A stretch of DNA of 64,000 nucleotides from Desulfuromonadaceae bacterium. GTDB taxonomy: Bacteria > Desulfobacterota > Desulfuromonadia > Desulfuromonadales > SZUA-401. The first letter of the stretch is position 1; every line of letters starts with the position of its first letter. The notes under the pieces are model-generated. The model worked only from the letters and a program-made list of their open reading frames with translations. It was not told the origin of the DNA and searched no databases. The translations under genes were made by a program, and so were the position numbers. Positions 38,266 to 63,816 of this stretch are shown piece after piece. The stretch covers positions 1 through 64,000 of the forward strand of contig QKBP01000108.1 of NCBI GenBank assembly GCA_003246035.1, read 5' to 3'.

Positions 38266-40146
<1,881 letters not shown>

Positions 40147-41376: not shown

Positions 41377-41392
41377 TTGACGGGAACACGCC

Positions 41393-42840: not shown

Positions 42841-42844
42841 TGAG

Positions 42845-44206
42845 ATGAAAAAACTCTTCGGGACCGACGGGGTTCGCGGCATCGCCAATGTCGATCCTCT
42901 GACCACCGAAATGGTCATGCAGGTCGGCCGCGCAGCGGCCTTTCTTTTTAAGGATGCCAAGCGTCGTCACCGCATCGTGATCGGCAAGGATACCCGTCTT
43001 TCCGGGTACATGATCGAGAACGCCCTGGTGGCGGGGATCTGTTCCATGGGGGTCGATGTGCTGCTGGTCGGGCCGCTGCCGACCCCTGGGATTGCGTTCA
43101 TCACCGCCTCGATGCGCGCCGACGCCGGGGTGGTGATTTCGGCGTCGCACAACCCCTATCAGGACAACGGGATCAAGTTTTTCTCCCGCGACGGGTTCAA
43201 GCTCCCCGACGAGATGGAATTGCGCATCGAGGAACTGGTCTTCTCAGACAAGCTCAACGACCTGCGCCCGACCGCTACCGAGGTCGGCAAGGCCTTCCGC
43301 ATCGACGACGCCCAGGGGCGCTATATCGTGTTCCTGAAGAACACCTTTCCGCGCGATCTCGACCTGCAGGGTCTCAAGATCGTTCTCGACTGCGCCAACG
43401 GGGCCGCCTACAAGGTGGCCCCCGCAGTGCTCACCGAGCTCGGGGCCGAGGTGATTACCCTCGGGGTCTCGCCCGACGGGACCAACATCAACGCCGGTTG
43501 CGGATCGCTGCACCCCGAGGTCATGGCCGCGGCGGTACGGGAACACGGCGCCAACCTCGGCATGGCCCTCGACGGCGACGCCGACCGGGTGATCTTCGTC
43601 GACGAGCACGGGGAAGAGGTCGACGGTGACCATGTCATGGCCATCTGCGCCACCGAGATGCTCAAGCGGGGGGGGCTGGCGAAAAACACCCTGGTCACCA
43701 CGGTCATGAGCAACGTCGGCCTCGATGCCGCCCTGCGCAAGGCCGGTGGAAGCATGGTGCGCACCGCGGTCGGAGACCGCTACGTGGTGGAAGAGATGCG
43801 GGCCAACGGGTACAATTTTGGGGGAGAACAATCAGGGCACATGATCTTTCTCGATCACAATACCACCGGTGACGGCATGGTCAGCGCCCTTCAGCTGCTG
43901 GCCATCCTGCAGCGCAGCGGCAAACCGCTCTCCGAGCTGGCTTCGGTGATGACGGCGTTTCCTCAGGTCCTGGTCAATGTGGCCGTAGCCAGCCGCATCC
44001 CGGTCGACGACATTCCAGGGCTTTCCGAGGCGGTTGAAAGGATCGAGGGGAAACTGGGTGAGAGCGGCCGGGTGCTGCTGCGTTATTCGGGGACCGAGCC
44101 GCTGCTGAGGGTCATGATCGAGGGTGAGGACCAGGCCCAGATCGAAGCGTATGCCAAGGAGCTGGCCGAGCTGATCCGCCGGGTCGTTGGTTACAAGGGA
44201 GGTTGA
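42845..44206 (+). CDS. glmM: Phosphoglucosamine mutase
   Basis: 453 residues from the ATG at 42845. Active-site phosphoserine S101 in [14 protein letters not shown], the metal loop ALDGDADRV, sugar loop GGEQSGHMI and phosphate site [12 protein letters not shown]. Converts glucosamine-6-P to glucosamine-1-P for peptidoglycan and LPS. In Firmicutes GlmM also binds and inhibits CdaA, so the operon may couple c-di-AMP to wall precursor supply. Confidence 0.96.
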
Positions 44207-44210
44207 GGTC

Positions 44211-44930
44211 GTGGCCAAGCTGGGAGTCAATGTCGATCATGTCGCCACCGTCCGTCAGGCTCGGGGCGGGCGGGAGCCCGACCCGGTGACCGCGGCGGCA
44301 CTTTGCGAACTGGCCGGTGCCGACGGCATCACGGTGCACCTGCGCGAAGACCGACGCCACATCCAGGATCGGGACGTCGAGTTGCTGCGCGACACGGTCC
44401 AGACCCGCCTCAATCTCGAAATGGCCGCGACCGACGAGATGGTGGCGATCGCCCGGAGGATCCTTCCCGACATGGTCACCCTGGTGCCGGAAAAACGCCA
44501 GGAGCTGACGACCGAAGGAGGGCTCGATGTCGCCGCCCAGCTCGCCCCCCTGCGCGGGGCGATCGCTCGCCTCAAGGAGGTCGGTATCCCGGTCAGCCTG
44601 TTTGTCGAAGCGGACCCCCGGCAGCTCGAGGCGTGCCGCGAAGCGGATGCCGATTACATCGAGATCCACACCGGGACCTACTGCGAGGCGACTTCCGAGG
44701 CCGATCGTGCCGTGGAGCTCAATCGGATCTCCGAGGCGATCCGGACCGGCCAGCATCTCGGCCTGGGGGTTAATGCCGGTCACGGGCTCAATTACTGGAA
44801 CGTCTCTCCGGTCGCTGCCCTGGGCGGAATCGAGGAGTTCAACATCGGCCACAGTATCATTTCCCGGGCCGTCCTCGTCGGACTGGATCGGGCGGTGCGT
44901 GAGATGGCAGCCCTGGTCAGGAGGGTGTAG
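44211..44930 (+). CDS. pdxJ: Pyridoxine 5-phosphate synthase
   Basis: 239 residues from GTG 44211, which gives the standard N-terminus [19 protein letters not shown]. Condenses DXP-derived and aminoacetone-phosphate precursors in vitamin B6 synthesis. [13 protein letters not shown] and [15 protein letters not shown] are family signatures. It lies four bases after glmM and is followed one base later by acpS, an order also known in E. coli (pdxJ-acpS). Confidence 0.95.
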
Positions 44931-44931
44931 C

Positions 44932-45318
44932 GTGTCCCCGCTGGCAGGCATCGGCACTGACCTGTGTCGTTCCAGCCGCTTCGAGAAATACCTTGAGGCA
45001 GGAAAGGACGGAGTGCTGGTCAGGCTGTTCACGCCCGGTGAACGGGAGTATGCCCTGGCCAAGCGTTATCCGGCGCCGCACCTGGCGGCACGCTTTGCCG
45101 CCAAGGAGGCCTTTCTCAAGGCGCTCGGACTCGGCCTGCGCGACGGGATCAGCTGGCAGGATGTCGAGGTGGTCCGGAACGACCTCGGTGCGCCGTCGTT
45201 GCAGCTCAGCGGCCGGGCGGCCGAAATTACCCGGCAGCGCGGGATCGGGCGCATTCACCTCTCGTACAGTCACGACGGCGACTATGCCATGGCGACCGTG
45301 GTGCTGGAGGACGCATGA
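44932..45318 (+). CDS. acpS: Holo-[acyl-carrier-protein] synthase
   Basis: 128 residues, GTG start one base after pdxJ. GIGTDLCRSSRFEKYL (magnesium Asp) and RFAAKEAFLKALGLGLR (catalytic Glu and Lys) are the two AcpS motifs. Attaches phosphopantetheine to acyl carrier protein. The end overlaps the next gene by four bases. Confidence 0.95.
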   Translation: MSPLAGIGTDLCRSSRFEKYLEAGKDGVLVRLFTPGEREYALAKRYPAPHLAARFAAKEAFLKALGLGLRDGISWQDVEVVRNDLGAPSLQLSGRAAEITRQRGIGRIHLSYSHDGDYAMATVVLEDA

Positions 45319-46883
45319 AGCTGCTCAACGCCGACCAGATTCGCGAGCTCGACCGCAGGGCGATCCGTGAGATCGGCATCCCCGGGCCGGTGCTGATGGA
45401 GAACGCCGGTCGCGCGGTGGCCGATGCGATCCAGGCGCGTTTTGCCGAGCTCGCTCCCGGCCCCGTTCTGATCCTGGCCGGCAAGGGGAACAACGGTGGG
45501 GACGGCTACGTCATCGCGCGCGTGCTTATTGACCGTGGCTGGCAGGTGCGCACGGTCGTGATTGCCTCCGCGGGGGAGATCCGTGGCGACGCAGCGGTCC
45601 ATCTGCGGGCCCTCAAGCGTTGCGGTGGCGAGGTGGTCCATGCGGCCAGCGAAACCCGTCTCGAGGCGGTCCTGTCCCGCGGGGTGGCCGCGGCGCTGGT
45701 CGTCGATGCCCTGCTCGGCACCGGGCTCAATCAGGAGGTGCGCGGGGTGAGCCGCGAGGCGATCGTCTGGTGCAACCGCCAGGCGGCTCCCGTGGTGGCG
45801 GTCGACATCCCCTCCGGGGTGGCGGCGGATTCGGGTCAGATCCTGGGTGCTGCCGTGCGGGCCGATCTGACCGTCAGCTTTGCTGCCGCCAAACCGGGGC
45901 TGGTCAGTTACCCCGGAGCGGCCTGGAGCGGGGAGATCGAGGTGGCGGAGATCGGCATTCCTGCTGCTCTGCTGGCAGAAGAACAGGCGGATGGGGAGTT
46001 CGTTTCGGCCGCCGAAGCGTCAGGGGTTTTACCGTCGCGTCCGGTGTCGGGGCACAAGGGGAGTTTTGGCCATCTGCTGGTCCTCGCGGGTTCACGGGGA
46101 AAAAGCGGTGCCGCTCTGCTGGCCTGCGAGGGGGGACTCCGCTCCGGGGCCGGTCTGGTGACCCTGGCGACACCGCGCTCGCTGCAGGAAGTCTTCATGT
46201 CCCGGCTCAGCGAGGCGATGAGCCTGTCGGTTCCCGATTCGGAAGGGGCGCCGAGTGCCGCCGCCTTCGACGCCATCGCTGCCGCCCTGAATCAAATGGA
46301 TGTTCTGGCGCTCGGCCCCGGACTCGGTACCGCGGAAACCACCCAGTTGCTGGTGCAGCGCCTGGTGCGCGAATGCGAGAAACCCCTGGTGGTCGATGCC
46401 GATGGTCTGAACGCTTTGATCGGTCACCCTGACATCCTCGCTGCAAGACGCGGGAGCGTTCCGGTGCTGACCCCCCACCCGGGCGAGATGGCCCGTCTGA
46501 CCGGTCTCAGCGTTGCCGACATCGAAGCCGACCGCCTGCGCGTCACTCGGGCCTATGCCCGGGAACATCGCGCCGTGGTCATCCTCAAGGGGGCCCGCAC
46601 GATCATTGCCGGCCCGGACGGCCACTTCCGGGTCAACGGGTCGGGTAATCCCGGTCTGGCCAGCGGCGGCATGGGGGATGTGCTGACGGGGCTGGTCGGC
46701 GGGTTGCTGGCACAGGGACTCGAGCCCCTTGATGCGGCGACCCTCGGGGTGTACCTGCACGGCCTGGCCGCCGACCGGCTGGCGGTCCGGCTCGGTATCG
46801 CCGGGATGCTGGCTTCGGATGTAGCCGCTGAAATTCCCGCCGCCCGCCATTTTCTCGTAGCCAAGGGAGGACGATCATGCTGA
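45315..46883 (+). CDS. nnr: Bifunctional NAD(P)HX epimerase / dehydratase
   Basis: 522 residues, a fusion of two repair enzymes for hydrated NAD(P)H. The epimerase domain (about 1-215) has ILAGKGNNGGDGYVIAR and VVDALLGTGL. The ADP-dependent dehydratase domain (about 235-515) has HKGSFGHLLVLAGSRGKSGA, VDADGLNAL, TPHPGEMARL and NGSGNPGLASGGMGDVLTG. It overlaps acpS by four bases and the CBS gene by seven. Confidence 0.95.
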   Translation: MKLLNADQIRELDRRAIREIGIPGPVLMENAGRAVADAIQARFAELAPGPVLILAGKGNNGGDGYVIARVLIDRGWQVRTVVIASAGEIRGDAAVHLRALKRCGGEVVHAASETRLEAVLSRGVAAALVVDALLGTGLNQEVRGVSREAIVWCNRQAAPVVAVDIPSGVAADSGQILGAAVRADLTVSFAAAKPGLVSYPGAAWSGEIEVAEIGIPAALLAEEQADGEFVSAAEASGVLPSRPVSGHKGSFGHLLVLAGSRGKSGAALLACEGGLRSGAGLVTLATPRSLQEVFMSRLSEAMSLSVPDSEGAPSAAAFDAIAAALNQMDVLALGPGLGTAETTQLLVQRLVRECEKPLVVDADGLNALIGHPDILAARRGSVPVLTPHPGEMARLTGLSVADIEADRLRVTRAYAREHRAVVILKGARTIIAGPDGHFRVNGSGNPGLASGGMGDVLTGLVGGLLAQGLEPLDAATLGVYLHGLAADRLAVRLGIAGMLASDVAAEIPAARHFLVAKGGRSC

Positions 46884-47326
46884 AAGCCAAGGATATCATG
46901 ACCACCCAGGTCAAGTCGGTCCTCGAGGAGACGACCATCGAAGAACTGGCCCGTATTTTTGTCGAGGAGCAGGTCAGCACCATGCCGGTCGTCGACGAAG
47001 AAGGGAACCTGCGGGGCCTGATTTCGGAAACCGACCTGGTGGCCCAGAACAAGCCGCTGCACCTGCCGCGGGTGATTTCCCTGTTCGACTGGGTCCTGTA
47101 CCTCGAGAGTGAAAAGAACTTTCGCGAAGAAGTCGAGCGGATCACGGCCCGTACAGTCGGTGAAATCTGCGTGCGCGACGTCGTGACCTGTCGTTCTGAC
47201 AGCCCGCTCTCCGAGGTCGCCGAGTTGATGACCGAAAAGCGCTTCAACCTGTTGCCGGTTCTCGACGGCGACAAGGTCGTCGGGGTGGTCTCCCGACACG
47301 ACGTCGTACGGGCCATGGGACGTTGA
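46877..47326 (+). CDS. Two-CBS-domain protein
   Basis: 149 residues, essentially two CBS motifs (about 5-58 and 92-147; IMTTQVKSVLEETTIEELA and VVTCRSDSPLSEVAELMTE) joined by a helical insert at 60-90. CBS pairs bind adenosine nucleotides, sometimes c-di-AMP, and regulate partners. No effector domain is attached, so the target is unknown. It overlaps nnr by seven bases and tsaE by one. Confidence 0.88.
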   Translation: MLKAKDIMTTQVKSVLEETTIEELARIFVEEQVSTMPVVDEEGNLRGLISETDLVAQNKPLHLPRVISLFDWVLYLESEKNFREEVERITARTVGEICVRDVVTCRSDSPLSEVAELMTEKRFNLLPVLDGDKVVGVVSRHDVVRAMGR

Positions 47327-47802
47327 TGGCCTCCTGGGAGGTTGTCACAACCTCGCCGGACCAGACCCGTGATTTCGGCGCGGCCCTCGGCAGGGTGGCG
47401 GACGATGGGACCGTTGTTCTGCTCAAGGGTGAACTCGGGGCAGGGAAGACCTGTTTCGCCCAGGGGGTTGCACGCGGGCTGGGTGTCCCCGAAGCTTTAC
47501 CGGTCACCAGTCCGACTTTCGTCATCATGAACCATTACCCCGGCAGGCTTCAGCTCTTCCATTTCGACCTGTACCGTCTTTCCGGCCCGGACGACCTCGA
47601 GACCATCGGCGCCGAGGACCAGCTAGGTCGGCACGGAGTCTGCCTGGTCGAGTGGCCGGAGCAGGGAGGGGTCGCTGTCCCCGCCGTGACCGTGACCCTG
47701 CAGACCGCGTCGGATGACCGCCGGACCCTGCAGGTGGACGCTTCCGACGCCTTCCATGAAGCCCTTCTGGAGCGCTGGCGGCAGGCTTGGGGAGCAGGCT
47801 GA
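47326..47802 (+). CDS. tsaE: tRNA threonylcarbamoyl-adenosine synthesis ATPase TsaE
   Basis: 158 residues from ATG 47326 (TGATG overlap with the CBS gene). Walker A GELGAGKT (35-42), TSPTFVIMNHYPG, FHFDLYRL and CLVEWPEQG are TsaE signatures. Works with TsaB and TsaD to make t6A37 on ANN-decoding tRNAs. It is the last gene of the long ftsH-folP-cdaA group; a terminator follows eight bases later. Confidence 0.93.
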   Translation: MASWEVVTTSPDQTRDFGAALGRVADDGTVVLLKGELGAGKTCFAQGVARGLGVPEALPVTSPTFVIMNHYPGRLQLFHFDLYRLSGPDDLETIGAEDQLGRHGVCLVEWPEQGGVAVPAVTVTLQTASDDRRTLQVDASDAFHEALLERWRQAWGAG

Positions 47803-47809
47803 GGCTCTA

Positions 47810-47833
47810 CGCGCAAACGCGCGCTTTTTTTTT
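47810..47833 (+). terminator. Terminator after tsaE
   Basis: CGCGC (47810-47814) pairs with GCGCG (47819-47823) around AAAC, then one C and nine T residues (47825-47833). The last two T residues are also the first two of the lysC -35 box. Confidence 0.8.
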
Positions 47834-47860
47834 GACGGCCCCCGGGAATCCTGCTATTAA
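47832..47860 (+). promoter_or_regulatory. lysC promoter
   Basis: TTGACG (47832-47837), spacer 17, TATTAA (47855-47860) with an extended TGC before it. The start would be near 47867, leaving a 79-base leader. The sequence CCCCCGGGA occurs in the spacer (47839-47847) and again in the leader (47874-47882). Confidence 0.75.
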
Positions 47861-47873
47861 ATGGCTTTTCCCG

Positions 47874-47921
47874 CCCCCGGGAGGGGGTTTAGAACATTCA
47901 GCCCGGCACGACGGTGTCCGG
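47874..47921 (+). other. Structured lysC leader
   Basis: Two hairpins fit in the leader: CCCCC/GGGGG (47874-47887, followed by only TTT) and CCGGCAC with GTGTCCGG (47903-47921, one bulge). The leader is too short for a lysine riboswitch (about 170 bases) and holds no Lys-rich leader peptide. A weak attenuator or stability role is possible. Confidence 0.35.
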
Positions 47922-47945
47922 ATTCTACTACAGGAGTAGACGAAC

Positions 47946-49178
47946 ATGGCTCTGGTGGTACAGAAGTACGGCGGTACCTCGGTTGGCGATATCGAAAAGA
48001 TTCGCAACGTGGCACGCCGGGTCGCCAAGACCTACGACGAGGGGAACGATGTCGTGGTTATTGTCTCGGCCATGGCAGGCGAGACCAACAAGCTGGTCGC
48101 ACTGGCCAACGAAGTCTGCGAATTCCCCAGCGAGAGGGAATACGATGTCCTAGTCTCGACCGGTGAACAGGTCACAATCGCGCTACTTTCGATGTGTCTG
48201 CAGTCGATGGGGTACAAGGCCAAGAGCTACGTAGGGCACCAGATCCCCATCTGGACCGACAGTGCCTACTCCAAGGCCCGCATCGAGGAGATCGAGGACA
48301 AGAAGGTTCGCGAAGATCTCAGAAACGGGACCATCGTGGTGGTGGCCGGATTCCAGGGATGTGACCGCGAAGGCAACATCACCACGCTCGGGCGCGGCGG
48401 CTCCGACACCTCGGCGGTTGCCGTTGCTGCGGCGATGAAGGCCGACGTCTGTGAAATCTACACGGATGTCGACGGGATCTACAGCACAGACCCGCGCATG
48501 GTCCCCGAAGCGACCAAGATGGACAAGATCTCCTACGACGAGATGCTCGAGATGGCATCGCTGGGCTCCAAGGTGCTGCAGATCCGTTCGGTGGAGTTTG
48601 CCAAGAAATACGACGTGGTGGTTCACGTCCGTTCCAGTTTCAACGACAATCCAGGGACCCTGGTGATGAAGGAGGATGCCGATATGGAAGCCGTTCTGGT
48701 TTCGGGGATTACCTACAATAAGGATGAAGCCAAGATCTCCGTCAACCGCGTGCCTGACAAGCCGGGGATCGCAGCAAAGCTGTTTTCACCTCTTTCCGAG
48801 GCGAACATCACGGTCGACATGATCATCCAGAATATTTCCCACGAGGGGTTCACCGATCTCACCTTCACCGTCCCCCGTGCCGATTTCAAGAAGGCGCTCA
48901 AGATCGTCGAAGCGACGGCCGGCGAGATCGAGGCCGGCGGTGTGAGCGCGGACGAAAATATCGCCAAGGTGTCGATCGTCGGGGTCGGGATGCGTTCCCA
49001 TTCGGGGGTCGCCAGCAAAATGTTCCAGACCCTCTCCTCGGAAGGGATCAATATCCAGATGATTTCGACCAGCGAGATCAAGGTCTCCTGCGTCGTCGAC
49101 GAGAAATACACCGAACTCGCCGTGCGTGTGTTGCACCAGGCCTTCGGCCTTGGCGACAAAGACGTCAAGGTCGAATAG
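47946..49178 (+). CDS. lysC: Aspartate kinase, alpha subunit
   Basis: 410 residues. Phosphorylates aspartate, the first step to lysine, threonine and methionine. The kinase domain (about 1-235) has [11 protein letters not shown] and [14 protein letters not shown]. Two ACT domains follow (about 260-335 and 345-405), which bind the feedback amino acids. AGGAG lies nine bases before the ATG. A second start inside the gene (48684) would give the regulatory beta subunit. Confidence 0.96.
48684..49178 (+). CDS. Internal in-frame start: aspartate kinase beta subunit
   Basis: The ATG at 48684 (codon 247 of lysC) is preceded by AAGGAGG at 48669-48675 with an 8-base gap, a better ribosome site than that of lysC itself. 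Translation gives 164 residues, [20 protein letters not shown] onward, containing just the two ACT domains. Bacillus and Corynebacterium alpha2beta2 aspartokinases make their beta subunit from an internal start at this same position. Seen: site and frame; inferred: actual use. Confidence 0.75.
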
Positions 49179-49223
49179 CTGCCCGCTCCGACGTAACGCC
49201 AACGCCAGTGAAGGGATGAAGTC

Positions 49224-50807
49224 ATGAGTCTGATCAAGCTGTACGATACCACCCTGCGAGACGGTACCCAGGCCGAGGACATCTCGTTTCTCGTTCAGGA
49301 TAAAATCCGGATTGCCCAGATGCTGGACGATCTCGGAATCCATTACATCGAGGGGGGGTGGCCCGGCTCCAATCCGAAGGACATCGCCTTTTTCAAGGAC
49401 ATCAAGAAGGTCTCCCTGAAACAGGCCAAAATAGCTGCCTTCGGTTCGACCCGGCGTGCCAAGACGACTCCCGACAAGGACAGCAACCTTCAGACCCTCA
49501 TCGACTCGGCGCCCGATACCGCGACGATTTTCGGCAAAACCTGGGATTTCCATGTCCGTGAGGCGCTGCGTATCAGCCTCGAGGAGAACCTTGAGCTGAT
49601 CAACGACTCTCTGGCGTATCTCAAGCAGCACATCCCTGAAGTGGTCTACGATGCCGAGCACTTCTTCGACGGTTACAAGGCCAACCCGGAGTACGCTCTC
49701 AAGTCGCTGCAGGCGGCCCAGGATGCTGGCGTCGACTGTATCGTGCTGTGCGACACCAACGGTGGCAGCCTGCCGAACGAGGTCGGCCGGATTATCGAGA
49801 AGGTCAAAGCGGTGATCAGCACGCCCCTGGGAATTCACACGCACAACGACGGCGAGTGCGCCGTTGCCAATTCGCTGGTGGCGGTCGAGCACGGGATCGT
49901 GCACGTGCAGGGGACCATGAACGGTTTCGGTGAGCGCTGCGGCAACGCCAATCTCTGTTCGATTATCCCGGCGATCAAGCTCAAACTCGGCAAGGAGTGT
50001 GTCTCGGACGAGCAGATGAAGAGCCTGCGCCAGGTCTCCCGCTACGTCTACGAGCTTGCGAACCTGGTCCCCAACAAGCACCAGGCCTACGTCGGCAACT
50101 CGGCTTTTGCCCACAAGGGCGGGGTCCATGTCTCGGCCATCCAGCGTCACCCCGAGACCTATGAGCACATGCGTCCGGAGCTGGTCGGCAACACCACGCG
50201 AGTCCTGGTCTCCGATCTCTCGGGGCGCTCGAATATCCTGGCCAAGGCCGAGCAGTTCGATATCAACCTCGACAGTAAGGACCCGGTAACGCTCGAGATT
50301 CTCGACAAGATCAAGGACCTCGAGAACAAGGGCTTCCAGTTCGAAGGTGCCGAGGCGTCTTTCGAACTGCTCATGCGCCGGGCTCTCGGCAGCCTCAGGC
50401 CCTTCTTCTCGGTGATCGGCTTCCGGGTCATCGACTCCAAGCGTCACGAGTCGGAAATGGCTCTGTCCGAGGCGACCGTGCAGGTCAAGGTCGGCGGACG
50501 CATCGAGCATACCGCCGCCGATGGCAACGGCCCTGTGAACGCCCTCGACAATGCTCTGCGTAAGGCCCTGGAGAACTTTTATCCCGAAATTCGCGATATG
50601 AAGCTCTTCGACTACAAGGTTCGGGTTCTTCCGGCCGGGAAGGGAACGGCCTCGATGATCCGTGTGCTGGTCGAGTCGGGAGATCGAAGCGGTCGATGGG
50701 GAACGGTCGGTGTCAGCGAGAATATCGTCGAGGCGTCCTACCAGGCCCTCGTGGATGCTTTGCAGTACAAGCTGTTCAAGGGGCAGGAAAACAAGGGAGC
50801 CGTGTAG
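49224..50807 (+). CDS. cimA: (R)-citramalate synthase
   Basis: 527 residues. Condenses pyruvate and acetyl-CoA to citramalate, the threonine-independent route to isoleucine known in Geobacter. The HMGL-type barrel has DTTLRDGTQ (8-16), [16 protein letters not shown] (metal HxH) and [15 protein letters not shown]. The C-terminal LeuA dimer/regulatory domain (about 395-520) should bind isoleucine. Homocitrate or 2-isopropylmalate synthase are less likely because length and motifs fit the CimA branch. AGGGATGAAGTC precedes the ATG. Confidence 0.9.
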
Positions 50808-54047: not shown

Positions 54048-56483
54048 ATGACCCAGAAGACACCTGACAACTCCGTGTCTGTCGACGAACTGCGCTGGCA
54101 TTGTGATCCTGCCCAATTCGAGTTTGCCTCGACATCGGAACTCCCTCCCCTCGAAAGTACCATCGGCCAGGACCGGGCGCTTACCGCCATCGAATTCGGT
54201 CTTGGGATGGCCCATGACGGCTTCAACATCTTCATTCTCGGGGAACCGGGGAGCGGCCGGGCCTCGACCATCAAGAAGATTCTCAAGGCGCGCTCCGAAG
54301 GGGAGAGTGTCCCCGACGACTGGTGCTACGTGCACGATTTTGAACAGCCGGATCGACCGGTGGCCTTCAGCCTCCCTTCCGGGACCGGGCAGCATCTGCG
54401 TGACGATGTCGAGGAGTTGGTCACCCAGCTCGCCGAGGAGGTTCCGAAGCTGTTTGAAAGTAAGGAGTACGAACAGCAGAAAGGGAAGATCACCAGCGAC
54501 CACCAGGAGCGTAACAAGCAGTACTTTCAGGAACTGGAGTCGGAGGCGGACCGCCAGGGGTTCATTCTCCAGCGGACGGTCAGCGGTCTGGTGCTGGTCC
54601 CGGTCCGCGAAGGGCATCCTCTCTCCCAACAGGAGTACGAGGAGCTCTCCGAGGACGAGCGGGAGGAGATCGACCGCAAGGGGAATCGGCTGCACGATAA
54701 GCTCAACGACGTGATGCGCGATGTCCGCGAGTCGGAAAAGGACATGCGCAAGGCTATCGAGGAGATGGAGCAGGCGATGCTGCTCTACACTCTCGGTCAC
54801 CTGTTCGAGGAGCTCGAGGAGAAATACGACCCCTACGAGGCGGTGCTGCGTCATTTCGAAGCCTGCAAGAAGGACATCCTCGGGCGCATCGAGGAGCTTC
54901 GCCCCGGCACCCAGCAGGTCGCAATCGGAAACCTGCGCATCGGCGGTCAGCAGGAAATTTCCTTTGAGCGCTACCGGATCAACCTGTTCCTCGACAACGG
55001 CAAGGGACAGGGCGCCCCGGTCGTCTACGAGTCGAACCCGACCTACTTCAACCTCTTCGGCCGGGTGGAACATGTCATCCAGATGGGGAATGCCACCACC
55101 AACTTCACCATGATCAAGCCCGGAGCCCTGCACAGAGCGAGTGGCGGCTATCTGATCCTCGATTGCCGCGAGGTGCTGATCAATCTGTTCACCTACGAGG
55201 CCCTCAAACGCTGTATCCGGCACGGTGAAATCCGTATCGAGGATATTACCGAGCAGTATCGCTTCTTTGCCACGGTCACCCTCAAACCCCAGGCGATCCC
55301 GCTTGACTGCAAGATCATCCTTATCGGTACGCCCCAGCTCTACTATCTGCTGTACCGCTACGACCCCGACTTCCGTAAGTTTTTCAAGGTCAAGGCCGAT
55401 TTCGACCGGATGATGGACAACACCTGGGAGAACATTCAGCAGTACGCGCTCTTCGTCGCCTCGAAGTGCAACGAAGAGGGGCTGCTCCACTTCGACCCGG
55501 GGGGAGTCTCCCGGATCGTGGAGTTCTCCACCCGCCTGATCGAGGATAAAAAGCGCCTCTCCTCGCAGTTCCTCGAGATCGCCGACCTGATCCGCGAAGC
55601 GGGATATTTCGCCCAGCGTCACGATCGCGAGCTGGTGCGTTCCGAAGATGTCGAGCTCGCCATCGAGGCGCGTATCTACCGCTCCAACAAGGTCGAAGAG
55701 CGGATTCAGGAGATGATCGAAGAAGGGACCCTGCTGGTCGACAGTGATGGCGACGTGGTGGGCCAGGTGAATGGACTGACGGTCTACCAGCTAGGGGATT
55801 TCAGCTTTGGACGCCCGGCCCGTGTCACGGTCAGGACCTTCCTCGGCAAGGCCGGGGTCATCAACATCGAGCGGGAGGCCAAGCTTTCCGGATCGATTCA
55901 CGACAAGGGCATCCTGATCCTCACCGGATTCTTCGGCTCCCGCTTTGCCCAGGACCGTCCCTTGTCGTTCGCCGCCTCGGTCTGTTTCGAGCAGTCGTAC
56001 GGCGGGGTCGATGGCGACAGCGCTTCTTCCACGGAGCTTTACGCCCTGCTCTCGTCCCTGTCCGGGCTGCCGATTCGCCAGGGGGTTGCCGTGACCGGCT
56101 CGGTCAACCAGCTCGGCCAGGTGCAGGCGATCGGCGGTGTCAACGAGAAGGTCGAGGGGTTCTATGCGGTCTGCAAGGCCCAGGGGCTGACCCACCGTCA
56201 GGGCGTGATCATCCCCCGCGCCAACGTCAAGAATCTGATGCTCAAGGACGAGGTGTGCGCGGCGGTCGAACGTGGCGAGTTTCATGTCTGGGCCATCGAA
56301 CATGTCGACGAGGGGATCGAGCTGCTCACAGGAGTCCCTGCCGGAGAACGGCAGGCGGACGGCAGCTGGCCACCGGAATCGGTCAACCTTCGGGTCGAGG
56401 AGCGCCTGCGGCAGCTGGCCGAGAGCGCGCGGCGTTTCGCCAAGGGGCGGGATAACGGTGACAACAACAGGGAGCCGGTATGA
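54048..56483 (+). CDS. Lon-like ATP-dependent protease (LonB/YcbZ type)
   Basis: 811 residues. The ATP site reads GEPGSGRAST (65-74), with Arg where Walker A normally has Lys. A long coiled-coil insert (about 120-260) follows, then AAA-type segments (PGALHRASGGYLILDCREVL, IPLDCKIILIGTPQLY) and a C-terminal Lon peptidase domain with the Ser-Lys dyad S658 (DGDSASSTELY) and K701 (GGVNEKVEGFY), 43 apart as in Lon. It lacks the Lon N-terminal substrate domain. It overlaps the next gene by four bases and is probably cytoplasmic. Confidence 0.88.
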   Translation: MTQKTPDNSVSVDELRWHCDPAQFEFASTSELPPLESTIGQDRALTAIEFGLGMAHDGFNIFILGEPGSGRASTIKKILKARSEGESVPDDWCYVHDFEQPDRPVAFSLPSGTGQHLRDDVEELVTQLAEEVPKLFESKEYEQQKGKITSDHQERNKQYFQELESEADRQGFILQRTVSGLVLVPVREGHPLSQQEYEELSEDEREEIDRKGNRLHDKLNDVMRDVRESEKDMRKAIEEMEQAMLLYTLGHLFEELEEKYDPYEAVLRHFEACKKDILGRIEELRPGTQQVAIGNLRIGGQQEISFERYRINLFLDNGKGQGAPVVYESNPTYFNLFGRVEHVIQMGNATTNFTMIKPGALHRASGGYLILDCREVLINLFTYEALKRCIRHGEIRIEDITEQYRFFATVTLKPQAIPLDCKIILIGTPQLYYLLYRYDPDFRKFFKVKADFDRMMDNTWENIQQYALFVASKCNEEGLLHFDPGGVSRIVEFSTRLIEDKKRLSSQFLEIADLIREAGYFAQRHDRELVRSEDVELAIEARIYRSNKVEERIQEMIEEGTLLVDSDGDVVGQVNGLTVYQLGDFSFGRPARVTVRTFLGKAGVINIEREAKLSGSIHDKGILILTGFFGSRFAQDRPLSFAASVCFEQSYGGVDGDSASSTELYALLSSLSGLPIRQGVAVTGSVNQLGQVQAIGGVNEKVEGFYAVCKAQGLTHRQGVIIPRANVKNLMLKDEVCAAVERGEFHVWAIEHVDEGIELLTGVPAGERQADGSWPPESVNLRVEERLRQLAESARRFAKGRDNGDNNREPV

Positions 56484-59400
56484 GGGCTCCCACGCGACTG
56501 ATGCGCAGCCTGATGTTCCTGCTCGTGCTGTTCGCGGCGAGCTCTTCGACCTTGGCGGCCGCTCCCCCGGGTTCGCCGTCCGCTCTCGAGGAGTGGACGC
56601 CGTGGGTGCTGCATGGCCAGGAAGAGAAGCTCTGCCCGGAGCTGCACGGCGGCGGAGGAAAGCGCTGCAGCTGGCCCGGACGCCTCGACCTTGAGCTCGA
56701 CGGTCGCGGGGGTCGCTTCACGCTCTCGGTCGAGATGTTTGCCCCCGGCTGGCTCTCCCTGCCCGGGGATCGGAGTCAATGGCCGCAACAGACCCGGTCC
56801 GCCTCGGGGGAGCTGGCGGTACTCGACAGGCAGGGTGTCCCCCAGGTCTATCTCGCGGAAGGGAAGCACCGCCTAGACGGCCGTTTCTTCTGGGAGGGGA
56901 TGCCCGACTGGCTAAGCGTACCAAACGATCTGGCCCTGATCGACCTCAAACGGAACGGTCGTCAGATCGCGCTCCCCGATCGGGATGAAAGTGGTCGTTT
57001 GTGGCTTCGCGAGCGTCTGGTCGAGGACAATGCGGAACAGCAGGAGACCCTCAAGGTTACGGTTTTCAGACGTCTGATCGACGAGGTCCCGTTCCAGGTC
57101 GAGACCCGTGTGGAAGTACAGGTGTCCGGCCCGCCGCGCGAGGAGCTGCTGGGTGGGGGACTGCTCTCCGGTGCCATTCCGCTGGAGCTGAGCAGCCAGA
57201 TCCCGGCCCGCCTGGAGTCGGACGGACGGCTGCGACTCCAGCTTCGTTCCGGAACCTGGTGGCTGACGCTGCACAGTCGCTTCATGCACCCCCCCGAGAC
57301 CCTCGGCGTGACACTCGGCGAAGGACCGTGGGACTCCAGCGAGATCTGGGTCTTCGACGCCCGCCCGAGCCTGCGCCTGGTTGAATTGAAGGGGGCTCCA
57401 GTCGTCGATCCCCAGCAGACGAGGCTTCCTGAGGGGTGGCGGCAATTTCCAGCGTACCAGATGGAGCGGGAGACCCGACTGCAGTTCCAGGAAAAACGTC
57501 GTGGAGCGAGCGGACAGCTGACGGACCGACTCACCCTCGAGCGGACGCTTTGGCTCGATTTCGATGGTGACGGCTACACCATTCAGGATCACGTCGGCGG
57601 AACCATGGGGGCAAGCTGGAGGCTCGATATGCCCCACCCCGGACAGCTCGGGCGCGTGGCCATCAACGGTGCCGACCAGTTCATCACCCGGGTCGAGGCC
57701 GACGGTCCGGCCGGCGTCGAGGTGCGTCGGGGCGAGATCGACCTGACGGCCGACAGTCGCTGGGAGGGGAGCCGCTCTCGCCTCAGTGCGGTCGGGTGGT
57801 CCCACGTCTTTCAGGAGGTTGCGGCGACCCTCAACCTCCCACCGGGGTGGCTGCTGGTCGATGTCTCCGGAGCCGATCGTGCTCCCGGGACCTGGCTGAA
57901 GCGCTGGACCCTGCTCGACCTGTTCCTGGTGCTGCTGGCCGCGATCGGAGCCTTTCGTCTCTGGGGGTGGCGCTGGGGGAGTGTTGCCCTGCTGGCGATC
58001 GGACTCTCCTGGCACGAACCGGGCGCACCGCGCTGGCTCTGGCTGCATCTGCTGGCCGCCGCCGCGCTGCTGAGGGTCCTCCCCAGGGGGAAGGCGCAGC
58101 TTTGGGTCGCCTGGTACCGGAGCCTGACGTTCCTGGTGCTCATTGCCGTCGCCGTGGTGTTCATGGTCGCGCAGGTGCGGGTCGGACTTTATCCTCAGCT
58201 GGCCCGCCCATGGCAGAGCGTCGAGCCGCTGCCGCGACCGGTCGCCGTGTCGCCGCAGGCCGAACCGGTCGAGAGAGCCGTGGAAGAAGCCCAGCAGGAC
58301 GTCGTGACGCTCTCTCTGCCGAGCAAGCGAGCCGGAAAGACCGCGTCGTCCCTTGCTCCGGCGGTCCCTGTCGGCGACCCGAACCTGCAGTTGCAGACCG
58401 GCCCCGGCCTGCCGCAGTGGCAGTGGCACAGCGTCCGACTGAGTTGGAACGGCCCGGTCGCTCACGAACAGCAGCTGCGCCTGTTGCTGTTCCCACCGTG
58501 GTTTTCCCTCGTGCTGAACCTGTTGCGGGTCGTTTTGATCGGGCTTCTCCTGTGGCGGGTCCTCGATCTCGAGGAGCCCCGGGGGGGGTGGCGTGGCTGG
58601 CTTCGTCCCGGCAGTACGCTCCTTGCTGCGTTGTTGCTGGGATGCCTGTTGATGCCGACGGCGTCCGCGCGGGCGGAGTACCCGTCCGAGGCGTTGCTCA
58701 ACCAGCTCCAGCAGCGTCTATTGGAGCCGCCTCCCTGCGGCGAGAACTGTGTCAGTGTCGCCCGGATGCACCTCGAGGCCGATACCCGCCAGCTGGCGTT
58801 GCGTTTACTGGTCGAGGCCCAAGCCCCGACGGCGATCCCCTTGCCTGGTCAGGTCGGTCACTGGGAGGCCGCGGAGGTTCTGCTCGATGGCCGTCAGGTC
58901 TCGGGGCTGCGTCGTGAAGGAGGGCACAGGCTGTTTCTGGTGATTCCGGAAGGGCGCCACCAGGTCCTGCTCCGCGCTCCGCTGGCGCATCGCAACAGGC
59001 TCCTGATCCCCTTGCCGCTCAAGCCGCATCAGGTCAGCTGGGATGTCGACGGCTGGGAACTCCAGGGAGTCGACAACCAGGGGCTCGCGGAAGATCAGCT
59101 CCAGTTGCAGCGCAGCGAACCACAGACCGAGGGCGAGTCCCGGAATCTCGAGCCGAGCCAGCTCCCGCCGTTTGTCCGCGTCGAACGGACGCTGCAGGTT
59201 GGCCTGAGCTGGCAGGTCGTGACCAACGTGACACGCCTGTCGTCCTTTGAACAGCCGCTCTCCCTTGAGCTCCCCCTGCTCGCCGGGGAATCGCCGATCG
59301 AGGACTTGCCGCGCGGCGAAGAGGGGAGGGTGCGTGTGGTCCTCCCCCCGGGGGTGGCATCCCGAAGCTTTATCTCCATCCTCGAGGAGCAGCCTCAAAT

Positions 59401-60565
59401 TACCCTCGCGGCAACGATGGAACATAACCGGGTGGAGGTCTGGCGGCTCGATCTCGCCCCGTTGTGGCATGCCGAATTCGATGGGATCCCGGAAATTTAT
59501 CCTGAGGATACCCGCCGGCAATATCTCCCCGAATGGCGCCCCTGGCCAGGCGAAAGGTTGATCCTGAAGCTTTCCCGTCCCCAGGGGGTGGCGGGTCAGA
59601 CCCTGACGATCGATGCCGCGCGACTGCAGCTCTCGCCGGGCGGGCGCGCGACCGACGCCACCCTGACACTCGACGTGCGCAGCAGCCAGGGAGGGCAGCA
59701 GCGCCTGGCTCTCCCCGCCGAAGCAGAGCTCCTTGCCGTATCGCTGGATGGCCGAGAACAACCGGTGCGCCGCGAAGGCGAAACCCTCTTCGTGCCGATT
59801 CACCCCGGGAGACAGCAGGTCGACGTGACCCTGAGGCTCGCAAGCGGCATGGGTCCCTTGTGGCAGACCCCCGATATCGATCTCGGCGCCCGTTCGGTGA
59901 ATAACCGCATCGACGTCAAGGTCCCTGGAGACCGCTGGGTGCTGTTTGCCGGCGGTCCGGATATGGGTCCGGCAGTGCTCTTCTGGGGGGTGGTGCTGAT
60001 CGTGGTCGGGGCCGGGCTGGTGCTGGGTAGGATCCCGTTGACTCCGATTCGCAGCTGGGAGTGGATACTGCTCGGTCTGGGACTCAGCCAGGGGCACGTG
60101 GTCATGGCCCTGCTGGTTGCAGGGTGGCTGCTGGCGCTTGGCTGGCGTCGCCGCCTCGATGCCCAAACCCGCGCCGAACTGTTCAACCTTGCGCAGATCG
60201 GTCTGGTTCTGCTCACGCTGTTGGCCCTCGGGGCGCTTTGTTGGGCGGTTCAATTCGGGCTGCTCGGTTACCCCGATATGCAGATCTCCGGCAACGGCTC
60301 CTCGAGCCAGCTGCTGCGCTGGTACCAGGATGTCGCTCCCGAGGCCTTCCCGCAGGCCTGGGTGGTCTCGCTGCCGATGTTTATCTACCGGCTTTTCATG
60401 CTGGCCTGGTCGCTTTGGCTCGCCTTCGCCCTGCTGAAGTGGCTGACCTGGGGGTGGCAGTCTTTCTCCACGGCCGGGCTGTGGCGTCATGCTTTGCGTA
60501 AAGGGAAGTTCCGATTCCTTTCCGCGGAAGGCAAGGAAGTTGATCATGAACACCCGCGGGACTAG
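56480..60565 (+). CDS. 1361-residue duplicated membrane protein, function unknown
   Basis: 1361 residues, ATGA overlap with the protease gene. Signal peptide 1-27, beta-rich periplasmic domain (about 30-470), four helices (about 476-495, 500-516, 519-534, 549-568), a Pro-rich linker and a helix at 675-695. Then the plan repeats: signal-like segment 711-732, ectodomain (733-1160), helices at about 1165-1183, 1193-1222, 1235-1262 and 1296-1325. Matched motifs recur at a constant offset of 692-701 residues, for example EIWVFDARP (288) with EVWRLDLAP (986). Cys pairs C52/C63 and C753/C757 start each half. I do not recognise a family. It precedes a receptor-like kinase. Confidence 0.85.
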   Translation: MRAPTRLMRSLMFLLVLFAASSSTLAAAPPGSPSALEEWTPWVLHGQEEKLCPELHGGGGKRCSWPGRLDLELDGRGGRFTLSVEMFAPGWLSLPGDRSQWPQQTRSASGELAVLDRQGVPQVYLAEGKHRLDGRFFWEGMPDWLSVPNDLALIDLKRNGRQIALPDRDESGRLWLRERLVEDNAEQQETLKVTVFRRLIDEVPFQVETRVEVQVSGPPREELLGGGLLSGAIPLELSSQIPARLESDGRLRLQLRSGTWWLTLHSRFMHPPETLGVTLGEGPWDSSEIWVFDARPSLRLVELKGAPVVDPQQTRLPEGWRQFPAYQMERETRLQFQEKRRGASGQLTDRLTLERTLWLDFDGDGYTIQDHVGGTMGASWRLDMPHPGQLGRVAINGADQFITRVEADGPAGVEVRRGEIDLTADSRWEGSRSRLSAVGWSHVFQEVAATLNLPPGWLLVDVSGADRAPGTWLKRWTLLDLFLVLLAAIGAFRLWGWRWGSVALLAIGLSWHEPGAPRWLWLHLLAAAALLRVLPRGKAQLWVAWYRSLTFLVLIAVAVVFMVAQVRVGLYPQLARPWQSVEPLPRPVAVSPQAEPVERAVEEAQQDVVTLSLPSKRAGKTASSLAPAVPVGDPNLQLQTGPGLPQWQWHSVRLSWNGPVAHEQQLRLLLFPPWFSLVLNLLRVVLIGLLLWRVLDLEEPRGGWRGWLRPGSTLLAALLLGCLLMPTASARAEYPSEALLNQLQQRLLEPPPCGENCVSVARMHLEADTRQLALRLLVEAQAPTAIPLPGQVGHWEAAEVLLDGRQVSGLRREGGHRLFLVIPEGRHQVLLRAPLAHRNRLLIPLPLKPHQVSWDVDGWELQGVDNQGLAEDQLQLQRSEPQTEGESRNLEPSQLPPFVRVERTLQVGLSWQVVTNVTRLSSFEQPLSLELPLLAGESPIEDLPRGEEGRVRVVLPPGVASRSFISILEEQPQITLAATMEHNRVEVWRLDLAPLWHAEFDGIPEIYPEDTRRQYLPEWRPWPGERLILKLSRPQGVAGQTLTIDAARLQLSPGGRATDATLTLDVRSSQGGQQRLALPAEAELLAVSLDGREQPVRREGETLFVPIHPGRQQVDVTLRLASGMGPLWQTPDIDLGARSVNNRIDVKVPGDRWVLFAGGPDMGPAVLFWGVVLIVVGAGLVLGRIPLTPIRSWEWILLGLGLSQGHVVMALLVAGWLLALGWRRRLDAQTRAELFNLAQIGLVLLTLLALGALCWAVQFGLLGYPDMQISGNGSSSQLLRWYQDVAPEAFPQAWVVSLPMFIYRLFMLAWSLWLAFALLKWLTWGWQSFSTAGLWRHALRKGKFRFLSAEGKEVDHEHPRD

Positions 60566-60595
60566 CCCCGTCGGGCAACGAATGACAGGAATGTG

Positions 60596-63043
60596 ATGAA
60601 GCGCTGGCTGTTCTCGGTTTCCTCTCTGATTCTGCTTTTGACCCTGCTGCTTGGTGCCGCAGTTCTCTGCCAGGCTCCGCCGCTGGTCGCAGTCGAGCGA
60701 CACATGCTGCAGCTGCGCTCCGGCTGGGTGCCGGTCCCGGAGGTGTCCCCGGTGGTCGCGGTGCGTCTCGGCGACGAGGTAGCTTCGCGCGACGCACTCG
60801 CCGCACTGGTCGAACGCCTGGCCGACGAGCGCGCGCGGGCCATTCTGCTGTACCTGCCGTTTGCCGAGCCTTCCCCAGCCGATGCGCGTACCCGGTTAGA
60901 GGCCATGCGGGACGCCTGGCGACGGGATCCCGGCGCCGGGCACAACGCCTTGTGGCGGCGTATCGATCGCGAGCTGCGCGAGTTCCAAGGCGAGCTCGAC
61001 GGTGATGCCCGTCTCGCCGAGGCGCTGCGCCTTGCGGGCAACGTGGTGCTGGCAGCCCCGGTGGTAACCGGGAACGAACCTGACGAAACCCTCGTGGAGC
61101 TGAAGAAGCTTTCGCTCAAGCTCGATGTCCCCGGCTGGAGCTGGGAGGAGCACCTGCGGCATTTTTCCAACCCGGTCGTGCCCCGCTGGAGACCGGAGGA
61201 GATCTCCTCGGTGGCACTCCCCTGGGGGGAGTTGCAACGACAGGCCGCGGCCGTCGGCTTCATCCCCATGGCGAGCGAACCCCTTCCGCCTGGCCTCCTG
61301 CTGCTTCCTAGCCAGGAGCGCTACTTCCCGTCGGCGCCCCTGGCCGCGCTGATGGTTGGCGACCGTTCCTCGTTCAGGACCCTCAAGTTTGCCCTGCGTG
61401 GCCCCTCCAGCGCACTCCTTGCCGGAAAACGCAGTTACCCGGTGGACCACTGGCTGCGTCTTCTCCCTCTCCCCGAGGCGATGCTGGCGCCGTTGCCGGT
61501 GATCAGCATGGACCAGCTGCTCGGCAAGGACCCTTCAGTCCCGGCTCTGGACGGGAAGGTGGTCATCGTCGGACGCTTTACCTCCCCGGGTGAGGCCGAT
61601 TACGCCGACGCCTACCTGCTCTCCCAGATGTTTGGAGATTTTCAGCTTGCGCGTCCCGGCTGGCTGCCTCTGGTCGAACTCCTGGGGCTTGGCTACTTCG
61701 CGTTTTTCCTCTGGCTGGTGGTCCCCCGTCTGCCGCAGCGTACCGCCCTGGTCCTGATGGGGCTGTTTGTCCTGGTCTGGGTGGCGGCTGCAAGCCTGCT
61801 GCTGGTCAATTTCGGCTGGTGGCTGCAGCTGACCCCGCCCTTGATCCTGACGATACTCGGTCTGGGCCTGCTCACTCTCGAGCGGGGCCTTCGCCAGCGT
61901 CGCGAGTCGTTGGTCGAGCTGAACTGTCGACTCGGTGAGCTGCTCCAGGAGAAAGGACTGCTCGATCGGGCCATGGTTGCCTACCAGGCCTGTCCGCCGG
62001 GACACGAGCAAGCCCGCGAGCATCTCTACAGCCTGGGTCTTGATTTCGAGCGCAAACGCCGCTTCGGACAGGCGCTCGCCGTGTACGAACACCTCGTCAA
62101 GGGGGGACGCTATAAGGACGTCGCGGAACGGCTAAACCGGCTGCGCGCCCACGATGGCAGCGCTCCGCTCGGCAAGACTTCCCGTGACAGTACCGTGGTG
62201 CTCGACAAGGGAGCCGTACACCCGACCCTCGGTCGCTACGAAATTGTCCGCGAGCTGGGGCAGGGGGCCATGGGGACCGTCTATCTCGGGCGCGACCCGA
62301 AGATCAATCGCGAGGTGGCGATCAAGACCCTGGCCTATGGAAGCGTTGACGATACCCAGTTGCCGATGATCAAGGAGCGATTCTTCCGTGAGGCGGAGGC
62401 TGCCGGGCGGCTCAACCATCCAGGGATCGTGACGATCTTCGACGCCGGCGAGGAGCACGATCTCGCCTATCTGGCCATGGAGTTTCTCAGCGGCGTCGAC
62501 CTGGTTCGTTACTGCAAGCCCGAGTCGCTCCTATCGCCTGCCGAGGTGTTGCGGGTCGTGGCGGATGTCGCCGAAGCCCTCGCCTATGCCCATGACAACG
62601 AGGTCGTTCATCGCGACATCAAGCCGGCCAACATCATGCTGCTGGACGACGGGAGCGTGAAGGTGACCGATTTCGGCATCGCCAGGGTAGTCTCCAATTC
62701 CCAGACCCAGACCGGGATGGTGCTCGGCACGCCGAGCTACATGTCGCCGGAACAGGTGGCGGCCAAGAAGGTCGACGGCCGCTCCGATCTGTTCTCTCTC
62801 GGCTCGGTCTGCTATGAGCTGCTGTGCGGTGACAAGGCCTTTGTCGGCGACAGCATGGCCTCGTTGATGTACAACATTTCCAACGTCAACTACACTCCGC
62901 TCCGCGAGAAGAAGCGTGGACTTCCTAAATGCTGTTACGCCCTGGTCGACAGCCTGCTGGTCAAGGCGGTGTCGCGGCGTCCGAAGGACGCCTCCGAAGT
63001 AGCTGCGGTTGCACGTGCGTGCCGCGAGAAAGCGAGGAAATGA
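60596..63043 (+). CDS. Receptor-like Ser/Thr protein kinase with CHASE2-like sensor
   Basis: 815 residues from ATG 60596 (AGGA five bases upstream). Signal anchor (about 6-27), a periplasmic CHASE2-like domain (about 30-350), three membrane helices (356-377, 383-404, 408-428), a TPR-like stretch (447-505), then the kinase (547-810): glycine loop GQGAMGTV (555-562), K577 (VAIK), HRDIKPAN (672-679), DFG (692-694) and GTPSYMSPEQ (711-720). All catalytic residues are present. It overlaps the phosphatase gene by four bases. The signal sensed is unknown; the giant upstream protein is a candidate partner. Confidence 0.9.
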   Translation: MKRWLFSVSSLILLLTLLLGAAVLCQAPPLVAVERHMLQLRSGWVPVPEVSPVVAVRLGDEVASRDALAALVERLADERARAILLYLPFAEPSPADARTRLEAMRDAWRRDPGAGHNALWRRIDRELREFQGELDGDARLAEALRLAGNVVLAAPVVTGNEPDETLVELKKLSLKLDVPGWSWEEHLRHFSNPVVPRWRPEEISSVALPWGELQRQAAAVGFIPMASEPLPPGLLLLPSQERYFPSAPLAALMVGDRSSFRTLKFALRGPSSALLAGKRSYPVDHWLRLLPLPEAMLAPLPVISMDQLLGKDPSVPALDGKVVIVGRFTSPGEADYADAYLLSQMFGDFQLARPGWLPLVELLGLGYFAFFLWLVVPRLPQRTALVLMGLFVLVWVAAASLLLVNFGWWLQLTPPLILTILGLGLLTLERGLRQRRESLVELNCRLGELLQEKGLLDRAMVAYQACPPGHEQAREHLYSLGLDFERKRRFGQALAVYEHLVKGGRYKDVAERLNRLRAHDGSAPLGKTSRDSTVVLDKGAVHPTLGRYEIVRELGQGAMGTVYLGRDPKINREVAIKTLAYGSVDDTQLPMIKERFFREAEAAGRLNHPGIVTIFDAGEEHDLAYLAMEFLSGVDLVRYCKPESLLSPAEVLRVVADVAEALAYAHDNEVVHRDIKPANIMLLDDGSVKVTDFGIARVVSNSQTQTGMVLGTPSYMSPEQVAAKKVDGRSDLFSLGSVCYELLCGDKAFVGDSMASLMYNISNVNYTPLREKKRGLPKCCYALVDSLLVKAVSRRPKDASEVAAVARACREKARK

Positions 63044-63816
63044 TGATTTTCGTCGCCGACGGGCGTAGCGATAGCGGCCTGGTCAGAGATCATAACGAAG
63101 ACAGTTTCCGCATCGATTGTGACGCCGGACTGTTCGTCGTCGCCGACGGTATGGGGGGACACGCTGCCGGTGAGGTGGCCAGCGCCCTGGCGGTAGAGGC
63201 CGTATTCGAGAGGCTCACCGGGACGTCGCCCGAAGCGGAGTGCACCGAAGAATACCTGCAGAGCGCGGTTCGCCACGCCAACCGGGTCATTTACTCGAAC
63301 GCGCTGGAGCACCCTGAGCGCAAAGGGATGGGGACCACGCTCACCTTCATGTGCTGGTACGCCGATGTGTTTCATTTCGGGCACGTCGGGGACAGTCGCG
63401 CCTATCGTTTGCGGGACGCTGAGCTGACCCAGCTCACCCGCGATCACACCTGGGTCAACATGCAGGTGCGCGCCGGAGTGATTTCCGCCGAAGAGGCTGC
63501 GCATGCGCAGTTGAGGCATGTGCTGGTCAAGGCACTCGGGACCGAGCCTGCGGTCGACGCCGACGTCATCGCGGTCGATGCCCGTCCCAAAGATCGTTTC
63601 CTGCTCTGCAGCGACGGTCTCAGCGACATGGTCAACGACGAAGACCTCAGACGTGTGCTTTCCGGGAAAGGGACACCGGGCGAGGTCGCCGAGCGGCTGG
63701 TTGAGCTGGCCAACGCCTTCGGGGGGAAAGACAATATCACCGCGGTGGTCATCGACTGCCACGATTCCAGATGGACGTCGAAACTCAAATCGGCCGTCGA
63801 TAAGATTCGGAGGTAA
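63040..63816 (+). CDS. PP2C-family Ser/Thr phosphatase
   Basis: 258 residues from the ATG at 63040, overlapping the kinase stop (ATGA); ATG 63043 is the alternative. PP2C motifs: RDHNEDS (16-22), VADGMGGHAAGE (34-45), GTTLTFM, GHVGDSRAYRL, LLCSDGLSDMV and GGKDNITAVVI. It is soluble, has no sensor domain, and probably reverses phosphorylation by the kinase just upstream. Confidence 0.95.
   Translation: MMIFVADGRSDSGLVRDHNEDSFRIDCDAGLFVVADGMGGHAAGEVASALAVEAVFERLTGTSPEAECTEEYLQSAVRHANRVIYSNALEHPERKGMGTTLTFMCWYADVFHFGHVGDSRAYRLRDAELTQLTRDHTWVNMQVRAGVISAEEAAHAQLRHVLVKALGTEPAVDADVIAVDARPKDRFLLCSDGLSDMVNDEDLRRVLSGKGTPGEVAERLVELANAFGGKDNITAVVIDCHDSRWTSKLKSAVDKIRR

Follow-up and report, generated by a model that had tools for sequence, protein, structure and literature searches.

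A bacterial membrane precursor duplicated in tandem, with Ost1-like beta domains and an internal signal peptide that looks cleavable

The FbcH cytochrome b/c1 precursor of Bradyrhizobium is a single chain from which signal peptidase, by cutting at an internal signal peptide, releases two membrane subunits, a precedent for which the literature searched gave no confirmation. The protein described here is likewise one chain with an internal signal peptide, but the two parts of FbcH are unrelated proteins, whereas those of the present protein are paralogues. In predicted fold, each part matches the N-terminal ('saddle') domain of the M1 aminopeptidases (LTA4H, PepN) and Ost1/ribophorin I, a subunit of the eukaryotic oligosaccharyltransferase. 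Yeast Ost1 is described as a non-catalytic subunit suggested to restrain the newly glycosylated peptide (PMC7226087), and OST1 is reported, by sequence, in eukaryotes and in TACK and Asgard archaea (PMC11417166). The present protein differs from Ost1 in being bacterial, in occurring as a tandem double copy, and in carrying an apparent insertion of four transmembrane (TM) helices.

The gene lies near one end of the window (the whole stretch of DNA analysed, 64,000 nucleotides). ORF 56480-60565 arose long ago when an entire precursor, from signal peptide to last TM helix, was duplicated in tandem, and its product is probably a polyprotein that signal peptidase I would process into two paralogous subunits, rather than an intramolecular dimer. 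What is new here is that the internal signal peptide, judged by its sequence, looks cleavable.

The gene, its neighbours and the layout of its product

The ATG of the ORF forms a 4-base overlap with the stop codon of the upstream ORF, and to judge from this overlap the upstream LonB/LonC-like gene is probably co-transcribed with it. The features are listed below in their order along the DNA.

54048..56483, + strand: upstream neighbour, a LonB/LonC-like AAA protease
56480..60565, + strand: ORF of the duplicated membrane precursor, 1361 aa, with an ATG start; homologues found
56480..56557, + strand: predicted N-terminal signal peptide, residues 1-26 (from sequence)
56657..57514, + strand: first beta region of the N-half, residues 60-345 (AlphaFold), homologous with its C-half counterpart
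57515..57871, + strand: second beta region of the N-half, residues 346-464, resembling the M1 aminopeptidase N-domain
57911..58189, + strand: TM helices 1-4 of the N-half, residues 478-570 (AlphaFold helices)
58229..58375, + strand: disordered, non-conserved linker, residues 584-632 (pLDDT under 50; conservation 0.24)
58376..58495, + strand: conserved QTGPGLP-W-W loop and beta hairpin, residues 633-672 (10/40 columns invariant)
58496..58561, + strand: TM helix 5 of the N-half, residues 673-694 (AlphaFold)
58580..58675, + strand: predicted internal signal peptide, residues 701-732 (site conservation and rule counts)
58751..59587, + strand: first beta region of the C-half, residues 758-1036 (AlphaFold, fold matches, profile alignment)
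59588..59953, + strand: second beta region of the C-half, residues 1037-1158, resembling the M1 aminopeptidase N-domain
59981..60265, + strand: TM helices 1-4 of the C-half, residues 1168-1262 (AlphaFold)
60266..60376, + strand: conserved MQIxGNGS loop and beta hairpin, residues 1263-1299 (10/37 columns invariant; AlphaFold strands)
60377..60469, + strand: TM helix 5 of the C-half, residues 1300-1330, then a basic tail (AlphaFold; conservation)
60593..63043, + strand: downstream neighbour, a CHASE2-Ser/Thr kinase, 27 bases past the ORF

The N-terminal signal peptide is likely to be cut after A26, the exact site being a prediction. A cysteine pair near the start of each subunit (C52/C63 and C753/C757) is invariant among the aligned members and would fit a periplasmic disulfide. 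The strands of the N-half hairpin are placed at residues 650-655 and 665-671 by AlphaFold, and 9/31 columns of the C-half TM5 are invariant. Judging from the alignment ranges to Ost1 and M1 structures, TM helices 1-4 appear to be inserted ahead of the last hairpin of the beta domain, which would set the protein apart from the M1 aminopeptidases. Basic stretches follow both TM5 helices and, because of the positive-inside rule, would fit a cytoplasmic location.

Directly downstream of the ORF, CHASE2 is joined to a Ser/Thr protein kinase (60593-63043), followed by a PP2C phosphatase (62929-63816), and the two are a sensor kinase/phosphatase pair. Elsewhere in the window, the region 38266-50807 encodes FtsH, pterin-binding (FolP-like), CdaA-like diadenylate cyclase and phosphoglucomutase/GlmM-like proteins, along with NAD(P)H-hydrate dehydratase, aspartate kinase-like and LeuA-like proteins. 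This gene order resembles that of Geobacter-like Desulfuromonadota, a group to which the window may belong. When the ORFs of 80 genome loci were clustered, the neighbours seen in the window were not conserved across them (Lon-like, 2/80; kinase, 1/80; PP2C, 0/80). The neighbour family met most often, which by eye is a methyltransferase, was present at only 15/80 loci, and a conserved operon partner was rejected as a guide to function. Loci of the Beggiatoa-like group have a divergent coiled-coil neighbour with a common LPEEVQRIG-type start, recognized by eye (L090:2365-3333, L111:3844-4803 and L115:8479-9441); one such protein was compared with Pfam and reached no cut-off.

Old tandem duplication of a whole precursor

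The preliminary description of this DNA had proposed an old duplication of a whole precursor with both copies retained, pointing to motifs that recur between the halves, and had suggested that the halves be aligned by profile and their AlphaFold models compared. All of the quoted motifs (14/14) stand at the residue numbers given, at offsets of 691-698, and the starts of TM1-4 are offset by 689-695. The fixed offset is lost past residue ~570 because the disordered linker of the N-half (584-632) is absent from the C-half. By BLASTP, residues 1-700 matched 701-1361 with E=3.1e-8 (26% identity over 60-423 / 754-1117), and the Smith-Waterman score of 28-700 against 733-1361 was 165, compared to a mean of 49 (sd 7.4) and a maximum of 80 in 300 shuffles. 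Half profiles built from 42 members aligned over 471 columns with probability 98, E=5e-13 and a score of 111.9; the score fell to 25.8 with reversed columns and did not exceed 36.4 in 40 column shuffles, and another half-versus-half profile run gave E=1.9e-13. Among single members, the half-half score lay above all 30 shuffles in 40/42.

By region, similarity is very strong for the first beta parts (profile score 68.8, at most 20.2 in 60 shuffles) and modest for the second (25.6, at most 22.0 in 60 shuffles), and the second beta part taken with the TM/hairpin region scored 35.5 (at most 26.4 in 60 shuffles). The TM parts alone showed no similarity beyond shuffles (19.6, at most 22.5 in 60), a result that favours a reading without duplication, in which unrelated beta and TM stretches are alike through composition. 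That reading is already refuted for the beta part, and the profile and single-sequence controls, the equal fold order and the equal PDB matches of the two halves make it highly improbable overall.

AlphaFold models of the N-half and C-half were built separately (pLDDT 86 and 89) and share a common plan of beta domains, four TM helices, a beta hairpin and a TM helix. The protein thus shows the half similarity and the equal element order of an internally duplicated membrane protein, the TM parts alone being not significant, and the old whole-precursor duplication with two retained copies, as proposed earlier, is upheld by BLASTP, by the profiles with their shuffles and by the matching models. 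In PDB structure comparisons, both half models match Ost1/ribophorin I and the M1 aminopeptidase N-domain, and the best Ost1 alignments of the N-half begin at residue 189. In the predicted models each half has the pair of beta domains and the TM helix after them that are found in Ost1, but the interdomain orientation is unmatched (TM-scores of 0.13-0.24 and rmsd of 16-24 A against Ost1) and the match is confident for single domains only. The N-terminal domain fold of M1 aminopeptidases is also present in the predicted models, but the HExxH zinc site of these enzymes was found in 0/76 of the loci proteins. No curated profile of Ost1/ribophorin I matched the sequence, and the window protein has no Pfam family at E<=1. 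Because the sequence-profile and HExxH tests gave no match, the window protein is filed neither as Ost1 nor as an M1 peptidase.

The halves are ~25% identical to each other and aligned homologues are 41-76% identical to the window protein; therefore, the duplication predates the spread of the family. The same identities would also allow divergence before fusion, as in an alternative origin, compatible with our best explanation, where operon read-through fused two related, already diverged genes. Separate half genes do occur in one draft genome (G036, below), which would suit such a fusion, but no accepted adjacent separate halves were seen among the matches listed in the genome searches, and the nesting of G036 among fused forms makes its split derived. 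We regard an origin by gene fusion as possible but doubtful.

The internal signal peptide and the separation of the halves

A counterpart of the signal peptide between the halves, noticed in the preliminary description, is present at residues 701-732, with a basic n-region, a Leu/Ala core (about 712-725) and PTASARA, then E733-Y-P, and a cut is predicted between A732 and E733 at a conserved Ala-x-Ala site. Conservation of the site was examined in 79 members less than 70% identical, picked greedily from 121 sequences and anchored on the invariant P735, sequences without a mapped P735 being left out. The -1 position is Ala in 68 of these, Gly in 4 and Ser in 3; [AVSTG]xA stands at the site in 61/79, and Asp/Glu at +1 in 60/79. 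Column entropy is 0.88 bits at -1 and 1.80 at -3, and 2.5-3.7 bits in the upstream columns of the core and n-region. Before dereplication, 86/118 sequences had [AVSTG]xA exactly at the site (three sequences were not mappable), and among 76 ORFs from named genome records, 55 had Ala at -1 at an unchanged spacing, while [AVSTG]xA was present in 52. Eighteen loci failed a looser rule at fixed spacing; in 17 of them a site ending in Ala can be recognized by eye, separated from the conserved start by additional residues. This extension past the internal site is often long in Beggiatoa-like loci (by eye), so sequence appears to have been added past the site and not within the signal.

Rule counts were made on 197 sequences (the window protein, 120 homologues and 76 loci; not dereplicated), an earlier form of the count having used 182, with ten TM segments as controls. 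The strict rule, a hydrophobic core followed by [AVST]xA, was passed by the internal segment in 187/197, by the N-terminus in 153/197 and by the ten TM segments in 9 to 90 of 155-197. When D/E/Q was also required at +1, the internal segment passed in 153/197, the N-terminus in 36/197 and the TM segments in 0-12. Looser tests discriminated poorly or not at all: under the loosest rule, TM segments passed in 18 to 197 members, while a crude test ([AVSTG]xA within ten residues) was passed by the internal segment in 114/118, TM1 in 104/121 and TM3 in 113/121, and seldom by TM4 (5/121) or TM5 (26/105). The hydrophobic run also had the same median length (12) in the N-terminal signal, the internal segment and TM5. 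Since loose tests fail to separate the segments, weight is given to the strict forms and to positional conservation alone. Mean conservation is 0.37 for the internal segment, 0.35 for the N-terminal signal peptide and 0.59-0.84 for the TM parts (0.59 and 0.84 for TM5 in the two halves). On these features the internal signal peptide at 701-732 looks cleavable, and its conserved Ala-x-Ala site is of the kind expected in a polyprotein processed by signal peptidase.

Alternatively, the internal segment may stay uncut and act as an extra TM helix, bringing the chain back to the periplasm and giving a single-chain intramolecular pseudo-dimer. Going by the AlphaFold models such a topology would work, with TM5 ending inside and the next segment leading out, and the fused form is the usual one (32/38 near-full-length; 28/33 in one open frame). 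Against an uncut chain are the conservation of Ala-x-Ala and of the acidic +1 residue in a segment that elsewhere varies as much as a signal peptide does, a predicted helix of only 13 residues (712-724; AlphaFold, low pLDDT), and the position of the Beggiatoa-like extra residues after the site (by eye). We consider it rather unlikely that the chain stays whole.

The halves occur as two genes in one draft genome, G036, of the class of L025 (record titled Oceanisphaera arctica). They lie on separate contigs (20147 and 15293 bases), away from the contig ends and each among other genes. The N-half gene (713 aa) ends about nine residues beyond TM5, and the C-half gene (685 aa) has a basic, then hydrophobic start ending LTYA/ES, which fails the crude signal peptide rule through an Asn in the core. 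The coiled-coil neighbour (LPEEVQRIG...) of the N-half gene is matched in G305 and G311 by similar proteins next to the gene (by eye), so the N-half seems to be at its old place. Trees of 69 tips were built, one per half, with fused proteins retained if four anchor positions were mapped and others dropped. Both G036 halves fell into one 13-tip clade (supports 0.988 and 0.993), the other members of which are fused and include records titled Thiomargarita; the order inside this clade differs between the N-half and C-half trees. Being nested among fused relatives, the split is thus derived. The predicted products of G036 show that the halves can be separate polypeptides, and the natural split rests on this one draft genome.

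Other apparent splits were set aside: those in G305 and G984 at contig ends, those in G310, G191, G114 and G183 because the matches reach contig ends by coordinates, that in G236 for a frame change inside the C-half, and that in G311 for a transposase-like insertion. In the last, an ORF of 343 aa (L115:5756-6787; transposase-like, IS630-like by eye) interrupts the gene near TM1. A search for single-half homologues, also suggested in the preliminary description, found no distant family of this kind among the 120 matches listed of 267; these 120 were pieces of the family described here (39-49% identical, many on short contigs, several with a signal-like start, e.g. P0128), none of them was accepted as a single-half gene, and the G036 halves were the only natural ones seen.

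The preliminary picture was of one giant protein, perhaps acting as an intramolecular dimer. Its duplication stands, but its single uncut chain is probably wrong: because of the conserved signal-peptidase-like site and the separate halves of G036, two chains that pair after cleavage are the better reading. Our best overall explanation, which we hold with moderate confidence, is a duplicated precursor with two signal peptidase I cuts that gives a pseudo-symmetric heterodimer with, at a guess, a platform role. The chain would enter the membrane through Sec and be cut twice by signal peptidase I, once after the N-terminal signal peptide and once after A732. The N-subunit would be about 706 residues long (27-732) and would still have the spent internal signal peptide attached to its end; the C-subunit would have 629 residues (733-1361). 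Each would combine a periplasmic, Ost1-like beta part with a set of five TM helices, the first four of which were probably inserted close to where the second saddle-like domain ends, and the two paralogues would pair 1:1 as a pseudo-symmetric heterodimer. We lean, though only slightly, towards a history in which the gene arose by duplication of an Ost1-like precursor, cleavage yields two paralogous subunits at 1:1 in a pseudo-symmetric complex, and the halves became split in one lineage.

Distribution, possible role and significance of the family

In one search, 3588 homologues were found at E<=0.001 among 7989 scored, and the 120 matches listed of the 3588 are full-length (1297-1426 aa). The main ORF, present in 78/80 genome loci, is 886-1559 aa long, all but two being at least 1313 aa. 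Homologues occur in genomes whose titles include Gammaproteobacteria, Myxococcaceae and Acidobacteria, among others. Counting matches at E<=0.001, 38/274 genomes of the class of L025 were positive (one near-full-length match in 32/38), as were 33/42 of the family of G036 (28/33 in one open frame), and the positives outside these fused forms consisted of fragments, a disrupted gene and the split form in G036. Counts by phylum were 20/146 for that of L058 (titled Myxococcaceae), 9/199 for that of L009 (titled Acidobacteria), including a marginal 43-residue match, 29/398 for that of L025, some being fragments, and 1/148 for that of L044 (titled Nitrospirales), the seed itself. G624, in the Acidobacteria set, has two family copies (C53 and C20), of which one spans the full length and the other matches positions 408-1347.

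The earlier remark that no described family has such a plan agrees with the searches, in which Pfam, NCBIfam and PADLOC had no family for the window protein and no PDB entry matched it by sequence, and 30 members compared with Pfam gave only scattered, weak matches to other families. Among the paper titles listed for the FbcH precedent, internal signal peptides, bacterial polyproteins and Ost1/aminopeptidase likeness, none dealt with the family, which is nameless and so unsearchable by name.

As a guess, the most likely work of the protein is that of a non-catalytic platform on the outer side of the inner membrane, where it would hold a substrate or a partner; the role of yeast Ost1 was used solely to favour such a holding function, by analogy. 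The TM4-TM5 loops and hairpins are among the most constrained stretches (10/40 and 10/37 columns invariant), and we would guess that the paired interfacial loops QTGPGLP-W-W and MQIxGNGS are a candidate working site. A link to exosortase/PEP-CTERM was unsupported, with 18/38 genomes with the protein versus 73/236 without it (Fisher p=0.062; overlap counted by hand from two genome lists).

The family is widespread, about 1360 residues long, and stands without a Pfam/NCBIfam model or a sequence relative of solved structure. It places Ost1-like paired beta domains in bacteria, beyond the range reported by sequence (PMC11417166). If the processing proposed here is true, it would be a clean bacterial case of a duplicated precursor cut by signal peptidase into two subunits, and a simple route from homodimer to heterodimer with the stoichiometry locked.
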